Under the pieces are notes generated by a model, which was not told where the DNA came from, did no database searches, and saw only the letters and a program-made list of their open reading frames with translations. From positions 1 to 64,000 of the forward strand of contig JAABSX010000015.1 of assembly GCA_011390205.1 (NCBI GenBank): a stretch of DNA of 64,000 bases, given 5' to 3'. The position numbers were made by a program, and so were the translations under genes. Source of the stretch: Microscillaceae bacterium (lineage in GTDB: Bacteria; Bacteroidota; Bacteroidia; Cytophagales; Microscillaceae). Positions 38,168 through 40,549 of this stretch are shown in pieces (within the stretch, counting starts at the first letter, position 1; each line of letters opens with the position of its first letter).

Positions 38168-40549
38168 ATGTCAGATATTTTTTTTACACAGGCAGATTGG
38201 CAGCTCTTTACCAATCTTAATACACTCCCTCAGCAGGCAGGGGTTTCACGGCATCAGCTGCCTAAACTCGTGGCCAAAGAGCTGACAGACAATGCCTTAG
38301 ACACCAATAGCAAGGTGGAGATAACCCACCAAAACGATGGCTATTTTAAAGATACCATCACCGTCAGAGATTATGGAAGAGGACTCACAGGCAGCAATGA
38401 AGACATCGCCAATTTATTCTCTATGAATCGCCCCTTGACCAGCTCCAAGCGGCTCAGATTGCCCAGCCGAGGGGCTCTAGGCAATGGGCTTAGGGTCGTA
38501 ACTGCCACCGTATATTGCAGCAATGGCACACTAGAAGTAGCTACTCAAGGGCGAAGGCTCAGACTTATCCCCCAAGATGACGGCAGCACAGCCTGCGAAG
38601 AAATCGGCACTTTTGAGGGTACAGGCACAGAAGTCAAGGTGGAGATTCCTGATAATTTTTTTGGAGAAGATATTTTAGCTTGGGCAAACATCGCCTTGCA
38701 CGCACAGCAAGGTGGGGCTTTTAAAAAAGGGACATACCCGCACTGGTATGATTCTGATAGCTTTTATGGACTTTTGCTGGCAAGCCCACCCGACCTAAAA
38801 CTGGAAAATTTTTTACAATTATTTGATAAAATCTCTCCCAACAAAGCCAAAAAAATCATTAAAGAATTTACTGCACAGTTTTCTGAAGAAATAGAAAAAA
38901 CCCTGCATTGCCCCGAAATCAACCGTGCACAAGCAGAATGGCTTTTGGCAATGCTGCACCAGTCTGTCAAGCCTCTCTCAGCCCAGAAGCTGGGAGAAAT
39001 CGGTGCTCTAGAAGATTTTCCCATTTACCAAAAACAAAGCACTGAATTTACCCTCAAAACCTCCAAAGGTAATTTCCATGCCCAAATCCCTGCCTTGATT
39101 GAAGTATTTGCCCGCCCTGAATCTAGCAAAGAGGGCAATCAACTACTCGTCAATAAAACACCCATTGCGGGTGAGATAGACATCCAGGTTTACGAAAAAC
39201 GCCTCATGATGTATGGTTGTGGCATCAGTCAGCAGCTCGAAATCCCCAAAATCTCCCAAAATGCCCAGTTTTGGGTCAATATCATCACGCCTTACATGCC
39301 CATCGTAAGCAATGGCAAAGAGCCTGACCTCTCCGCATTGGCGAGCATCATAGGTGAGAATCTCCAAAAAGCAGCCCGACAACTCAAGCAGAAAACTACC
39401 TCACATTCTACCTCCGAACTTTCAGACACCAGCCCCAAACCTTCCCAAAAGCAAGCCCTGCTCGATGGGCTGAGCCAAGCCATTGACAAGGCATCAGGCG
39501 AGGGCAAGTACAGGTATTCTCTCAGGCAGCTTTACTACGCCCTCAGGCCACTCGTGATGCAAGCCACGGGCAAGGAGCTGAAGTATGCCAATTTTAACAA
39601 TATCATCACTGATTATGAATTCGATACAGGGGAAGACCTGCCTGGGGTATATAGAGATGAGCGTGGCACACTCTTGCACCCACACACGCACCAAGAAATC
39701 AAGCTGGGCACTAAAAACATAGAGCGATACCAGCGGCCTGTCTATAATTTTAATAAAATCTTGTATTCCGAAAAAGAAGGCTTCTTCGAAATCTTAAAAG
39801 ATGCCAAGTTCTGCGAGCAGCATGATTGTGCCTTGCTGACCTCCAAGGGCTTCGCCAGCCGAGCCGCCAGAGATGTGATAGACCTGCTGGCAGAAACCGA
39901 AGAAGAGCTACTGTTTTTTTGTATCCATGATGCAGACCTCTCAGGTTCACTTATTTACCAAGCACTTCAGGGAGCTACCAAAGCCCGCCCCGAGCGCAAA
40001 GTAAAAATCATTAATCTGGGCTTAGAGCCTTGGGAAGGGCTAGAAATGGGACTAGAAGTAGAAAACCTCGAAAAACGCTCCACCAAAAGTGCCGCACAAT
40101 ATGTAACAAGTTTTGATGATGACTGGCAAAACCCCAAACCTGTACAGTTTGAAGGCTACGAACGCTGGGCAACTTGGGGCGAATGGCTCAAATCTTTCAG
40201 AATAGAACTTAATGCGATGGATACGCCCACTTTCATAAATTGGTTACACAAAAAAATCAGCCAATACGACAATGGCAAAGTGCTTCCGCAAGAAGATTTC
40301 TTGAAAGCACAAGCCAAACAAAGCGTAGAACTTCAGCTCAAAGCACAAATCAGGGCTGAAATCTTGAAAAAACTAAATATAGAGCAACAAATCCAAGAGC
40401 AGTTTGTCAAAGATGGCCCCCGTATTCAGGCATTTATCCAAGAAAAAGACTGGCAAGAAAAAGTATTACAAACCCTCCAAGACCTGCCTCAGCAAAGCTG
40501 GAAAGAAGGGCTAGAAAGTCTGCTAGAAGAGATTATCAAGAAAATTTAA
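38168..40549 (+). CDS. Single-chain type IIB topoisomerase-like protein (Topo VI B-A fusion, Topo VIII-like)
   Basis: A 793-residue cytoplasmic protein. Residues 1 to about 270 form a GHKL ATPase like Topo VI B: N box ELTDNALD (38-45), VRDYGRG (66-72), SRGALGNG (100-107) and GTGTEV (151-156). Near 326-333, LLVNKTPI recalls the NRVP motif of the Topo VI B transducer. From about 425 comes a Topo VI A/Spo11-like part: YRYSLRQLYYALRP (448-461) with the YY pair, Tyr457 the likely nucleophile, then a TOPRIM domain with SEKEGFF (Glu535) and HDADLSG (Asp588, Asp590). A charged coiled coil ends the chain. ATP-driven double-strand passage is inferred. All key residues are present. Neighbours are unrelated housekeeping genes, and no mobile genes are near. 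Confidence 0.82.
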   Translation: MSDIFFTQADWQLFTNLNTLPQQAGVSRHQLPKLVAKELTDNALDTNSKVEITHQNDGYFKDTITVRDYGRGLTGSNEDIANLFSMNRPLTSSKRLRLPSRGALGNGLRVVTATVYCSNGTLEVATQGRRLRLIPQDDGSTACEEIGTFEGTGTEVKVEIPDNFFGEDILAWANIALHAQQGGAFKKGTYPHWYDSDSFYGLLLASPPDLKLENFLQLFDKISPNKAKKIIKEFTAQFSEEIEKTLHCPEINRAQAEWLLAMLHQSVKPLSAQKLGEIGALEDFPIYQKQSTEFTLKTSKGNFHAQIPALIEVFARPESSKEGNQLLVNKTPIAGEIDIQVYEKRLMMYGCGISQQLEIPKISQNAQFWVNIITPYMPIVSNGKEPDLSALASIIGENLQKAARQLKQKTTSHSTSELSDTSPKPSQKQALLDGLSQAIDKASGEGKYRYSLRQLYYALRPLVMQATGKELKYANFNNIITDYEFDTGEDLPGVYRDERGTLLHPHTHQEIKLGTKNIERYQRPVYNFNKILYSEKEGFFEILKDAKFCEQHDCALLTSKGFASRAARDVIDLLAETEEELLFFCIHDADLSGSLIYQALQGATKARPERKVKIINLGLEPWEGLEMGLEVENLEKRSTKSAAQYVTSFDDDWQNPKPVQFEGYERWATWGEWLKSFRIELNAMDTPTFINWLHKKISQYDNGKVLPQEDFLKAQAKQSVELQLKAQIRAEILKKLNIEQQIQEQFVKDGPRIQAFIQEKDWQEKVLQTLQDLPQQSWKEGLESLLEEIIKKI

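Follow-up and report, generated by a model that had tools for sequence, protein, structure and literature searches.

A single-chain topoisomerase VIII on the chromosome of a Microscillaceae bacterium, and an Asp/Asn split at its adenine-binding position

The window, i.e., the whole stretch of 64,000 nucleotides analysed here, carries a gene that full-length homology places in the topoisomerase VIII (Topo VIII) family. We consider it very probable that the product is a chromosomal Topo VIII, a type IIB enzyme with B-like and A-like parts in one chain. Agreement between gene and species trees, host-like composition and presence in the family with some losses lead us to conclude that Topo VIII is here an additional chromosomal topoisomerase of long standing, passed on vertically and dispensable. 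The usual picture of Topo VIII is of an enzyme that belongs to mobile elements, whose use is unknown and whose activity is weak and puzzling; a family in which strong selection has kept the gene chromosomal is a place to seek a cellular role. What this work contributes is the genomic context of an enzyme type already known, which has settled unusually well in a single family of bacteria.

Gene and domain layout

The frame is uninterrupted from ATG to stop and was divided as follows:

38168..40549, + strand: gene for a single-chain topoisomerase VIII of 793 aa (open frame; 38% identity to the Paenibacillus polymyxa enzyme by tblastn, 56–62% to same-family relatives)
38168..38662, + strand: GHKL ATPase domain, residues 1–165, with E38, N42 and the lid RGALGNG at 101–107 (Pfam HATPase_c; Topo VI B profile and fold)
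38369..38371, + strand: D68, the Asp of DxGxG that binds adenine; five relatives have Asn here (17-homolog alignment)
38729..39007, + strand: H2TH-like segment, residues ~188–280 (HMM alignment with Topo VI B residues 230–332)
39008..39412, + strand: transducer and stalk helix, residues ~281–415 (HMM alignment with Topo VI B; helix 389–415 in the model)
39317–39319, + strand: K384, most likely the switch lysine (SNGKEPDL aligned to SAGKES of Topo VI B; K384 invariant)
39437..39658, + strand: 5Y-CAP/winged-helix region, residues ~424–497, including R453 (invariant RQLxY; Foldseek to Top6A/Spo11)
39536–39538, + strand: predicted catalytic Y457, within the invariant RQLxY
39659..40273, + strand: TOPRIM and the rest of the Top6A-like core, residues 498–702, with E535, D588 and D590 (Pfam PF21180; Z 15.4 against Top6A; invariant residues)
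40274..40546, + strand: C-terminal helical extension, residues 703–793 (past the Top6A match; helical in the model)

A reading of this DNA from the sequence only had proposed a one-chain fusion of a Topo VI B-like and a Top6A/Spo11-like module, and frame, Pfam, profile and fold matches all bear it out. Pfam recognized TOP6A-Spo11_Toprim (PF21180) at residues 531–644 (E 1.5e-9) and HATPase_c at residues 33–161 (1.5e-5), the latter at 25.9 bits, slightly below the 26.4 cut-off. The profile check suggested by the same reading, carried out against the PDB with a family profile built from 12 relatives, matched both halves: Topo VI B (2zbk_B, E 1e-4, spanning the GHKL and H2TH/transducer parts) and Topo VI A (1d3y, E 3e-4). 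In the predicted models, which it had also called for, the nearest fold is Topo VI B for residues 1–416 (Foldseek 9e-14, Z about 13–14) and Top6A for residues 498–702 (Z 15.4, rmsd 3.3 across 187 residues), followed for the A-like half by Spo11 (Z 11.8) and the JetD and C. glutamicum nucleases (Z 11–12). Mean pLDDT was 64 for the full-length model (5 sequences) and 73 for the C-terminal half folded alone, and because these values are middling, the models were used for fold alone. The C-terminal half is thus similar to Top6A by Pfam, profile and fold.

Relation to known topoisomerases

By tblastn, the window gene matches the Topo VIII of the P. polymyxa M1 plasmid (pPPM1a, NC_017543) along 99% of the length at 38% identity (E 3e-156), and the Pseudomonas megaplasmid proteins and the P. 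polymyxa enzyme are 38–40% identical to it with 99% of the length aligned. Since this match to a known Topo VIII is full-length, the gene belongs to that family and the single-chain B-A architecture is already known, not new. Topo VIII enzymes are described as mostly homodimeric, chiefly encoded on mobile elements and provided with a short C-terminal extension (PMC8185306; PMC7614492). The window protein has B and A modules in one polypeptide, the catalytic tyrosine and TOPRIM acids and, compared with Topo VI, a short extension at the C terminus (residues 703–793).

The P. polymyxa enzyme shares with it the single-chain architecture, the catalytic residues and an intact DxGxG motif, but is plasmid-borne, whereas the window gene lies on the chromosome and has been passed on vertically in its family. 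Topo VI has the same GHKL, H2TH-like, transducer, 5Y-CAP and TOPRIM parts; however, it occurs mainly in archaea, is far removed in sequence (profile E about 1e-4) and is divided into separate A and B subunits, an arrangement absent from the single-chain window protein. Mini-A and Spo11 have a related A-type cleavage module without a fused ATPase half, while here the GHKL half is present. The Topo VIII of Microscilla marina, most likely represented by genome G006, belongs to the same family-level clade, has the same architecture and is 58% identical, but carries Asn in place of the adenine-binding Asp that the window enzyme retains and is reported to be ATP-independent (PMC7614492).

Catalytic residues and proposed mechanism

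Every expected catalytic residue is present in the window copy, as the sequence-only reading had noticed, and Y457, E535, D588 and D590 are invariant in alignments of full-length plasmid, viral and chromosomal relatives. The spacing of R453 and Y457 fits that of R102 and Y106 in M. mazei Top6A (PMC13040014), and E680 is likely a clasp residue. A transducer is also present as first proposed, but the lysine that senses ATP is most likely not in the segment LLVNKTPI; it is most likely K384, which aligns with the SAGKES lysine of Topo VI. An H2TH-like segment was added to the layout. In Topo VI, each tyrosine acts with the TOPRIM of the partner subunit (PMC13040014), so a tyrosine far from the TOPRIM acids on a single chain, which had been suggested as grounds for refutation, is not a valid one.

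The window enzyme most likely acts as a homodimer. ATP would be held by E38, N42, D68 and the lid, the N-terminal gate would close on the transported duplex, and K384 would sense the nucleotide. Closure would be relayed by the transducer and stalk to the cleavage half, where the gate duplex would be cut by two Y457 residues, each working with E535, D588 and D590 of the partner's TOPRIM; the other duplex would then pass and the break be resealed. Two type IIA A-subunit genes, of GyrA and ParC types, are also found in the window's genome, and the enzyme is probably an accessory one that relaxes or decatenates DNA alongside gyrase and topo IV. Assayed Topo VIII enzymes are weakly active (PMC7614492).

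Distribution, inheritance and selection

One intact copy is found in 10 of the 15 genomes of the host's family, with no internal stops in any of them, and these copies are 51–95% identical to each other. A further 375 sampled genomes of the order yielded no Topo VIII, and neither did the phylum and class samples (395 and 295 genomes, partly overlapping). Since five family genomes, one of them 99% complete, are without it, the gene is not essential. No remnants were detected in these five at E up to 1, and at most four loss events in the species tree account for their absences, although an absence in a fragmented assembly may be a gap. Related sequences are found on a few viral contigs, two of them with a broken frame, and the phage records searched gave no match.

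Family sequences form one clade (support 100/100), and the topology of a species tree built from rpoB and parC is compatible with the Topo VIII data, for which it is not rejected (AU p 0.30) and ranks in the top three of the 99 topologies tried. Of the random genus arrangements, the first few listed were 54–67 log units worse, and a few others, within 13–17, were also not rejected. Both GC3, which ranges from 0.20 to 0.59, and codon usage of the gene track each host. Pairwise dN/dS, by the simple Nei–Gojobori method, is 0.06 for the pair G006/G007 and 0.11–0.14 within the genus of G010–G012, with its minimum in the TOPRIM domain; the window copy has no relative near enough to be paired in this way. 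The option of a resident Topo VIII, raised from the sequence only, is the one that full-length homology, chromosomal location, vertical inheritance and purifying selection favor.

Genomic neighborhood

The neighbor genes examined are ordinary (DUF6272, FKBP, sigma-70, S49 peptidase), and among them the earlier impression of a common chromosomal setting without mobile genes holds. Gene order around Topo VIII is not conserved across genera, but this is no sign of mobility since the positions of gyrA and parC are hardly better conserved. Homologs of tatA-gatA-mltD adjoin Topo VIII in G006 and G007, and metG in G001, whereas in the window these genes sit about 33 kb away; in the other genomes neither gatA nor metG is in close linkage with Topo VIII. 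A conserved gene neighborhood therefore has little support: the survey in relatives proposed by the sequence-only reading gave no conserved partner genes, and no conserved neighbor ties Topo VIII to a process among the family genomes compared. Scans for sigma-70-like promoters and terminators found sites no more numerous than in shuffled sequences. The window protein has no PADLOC match at E up to 1, and this result and the lack of conserved partners oppose a defence system; the proposal of a novel family acting in defence is not supported, on these grounds and because the sequence groups with Topo VIII.

The Asp68/Asn68 split

In the GHKL superfamily, the Asp of the DxGxG motif contacts adenine. 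Asn at the equivalent Asp (D79N) leaves Hsp90 defective in nucleotide binding (PMC10148809). Our 17-homolog alignment has Asp at position 68 in 12 Topo VIIIs, from five family genomes and seven plasmid or viral homologs, and Asn in G006, G007, G001, G013 and G014; in two of these five the motif is damaged at additional positions. Among 137 sites invariant in ten other full-length sequences, only D68 is changed in all five Asn genomes. In the Topo VIII tree these five group as a single clade (93/97). The species tree, where G005, without a copy, lies at the base of the same group, is consistent with a single D68N event. The GHKL domain of the Asn68 pair G006/G007 has a dN/dS of 0.014. Canonical ATP binding has probably been lost in the Asn68 clade while the GHKL domain is still kept; this form might bind another nucleotide instead.

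M. marina Topo VIII is reported to need no ATP for DNA relaxation, in contrast to the enzyme of P. polymyxa (PMC7614492), whose plasmid homolog has the DxGxG motif intact. An annexin-lipase fusion has been described for M. marina ATCC 23134 (PMC3894181). Within the family, an annexin occurs in G006 alone, seemingly as such a fusion, and for this reason we take this genome to be probably M. marina or a close relative. The frame concerned (L138:1390-2982) is read by us as annexin-lipase from its GHSLGG motif. With G006 standing in for the assayed sequence, Asn68 could explain the reported ATP-independent activity, and the window enzyme, with Asp68, is predicted to need ATP. We tentatively propose, with more doubt than confidence, that the family domesticated Topo VIII and that one branch dropped canonical ATP binding through a single D68N event while keeping the GHKL domain, giving ATP-dependent and ATP-independent forms. 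The window and Microscilla enzymes differ at the residue expected to decide the need for ATP, and the Asp/Asn split offers a direct test of that need in type IIB strand passage.

Alternative explanations

A programmed double-strand-break enzyme, nearer to Spo11 or to the Gabija/Wadjet nucleases and cutting foreign or damaged DNA without strand passage, is an unlikely reading of the gene. It draws on the matches of the A-like half to Spo11 (Z 11.8), JetD and the C. glutamicum nucleases (Z 11–12) and on the Ammonifex Topo VIII, for which cleavage only is reported (PMC7614492); however, Top6A outscores all of these (Z 15.4), the entire B-like gate is under purifying selection, and neither a PADLOC match nor conserved partner genes were found.

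Even less probable is a maintenance gene of a plasmid or phage that entered recently and remains selfish, outside host biology. Homologs do exist on plasmids and viral contigs, and reviews call Topo VIII mainly mobile-element-encoded (PMC8185306), but the single family clade (100/100) with a tree that matches the species tree, the base composition that follows the host across a wide GC3 range and the lack of a mobile gene among the neighbors examined all speak against it, and a position that is unconserved between genera says little when gyrA and parC fare hardly better. Codon usage, tree agreement and family restriction lead us to reject a recent mobile insertion. We find it very improbable that the gene is a decaying and inactive relic: many Topo VIII enzymes seem partly inactivated according to a review (PMC7614492) and five relatives miss the adenine-binding Asp, yet no family copy has a stop, all motifs are intact in the window copy, dN/dS is 0.06–0.14, and even the Asn68 pair has a value of 0.014 in its GHKL domain. 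A chromosomal Topo VIII remains the reading that we prefer.

Additional observations

GyrA inteins were seen in G001 (L116:7930-11736) and G004 (L118:461-4804, seemingly two) as Intein_splicing with LAGLIDADG_3 matches. They are probable in G005, G008, G009, G010 and G012 from split matches and frame length, and none was seen in the window's genome; their presence has no link with that of Topo VIII. Among the Topo VIII homologs of viral contigs, L136:5980-8180 and L137:2394-4855 are frame-broken and those of L133–L135 are intact. In L133:8482-13245, the Topo VIII is followed by frames that, by eye, resemble a DNA methyltransferase, an integrase-type recombinase and a terminase.
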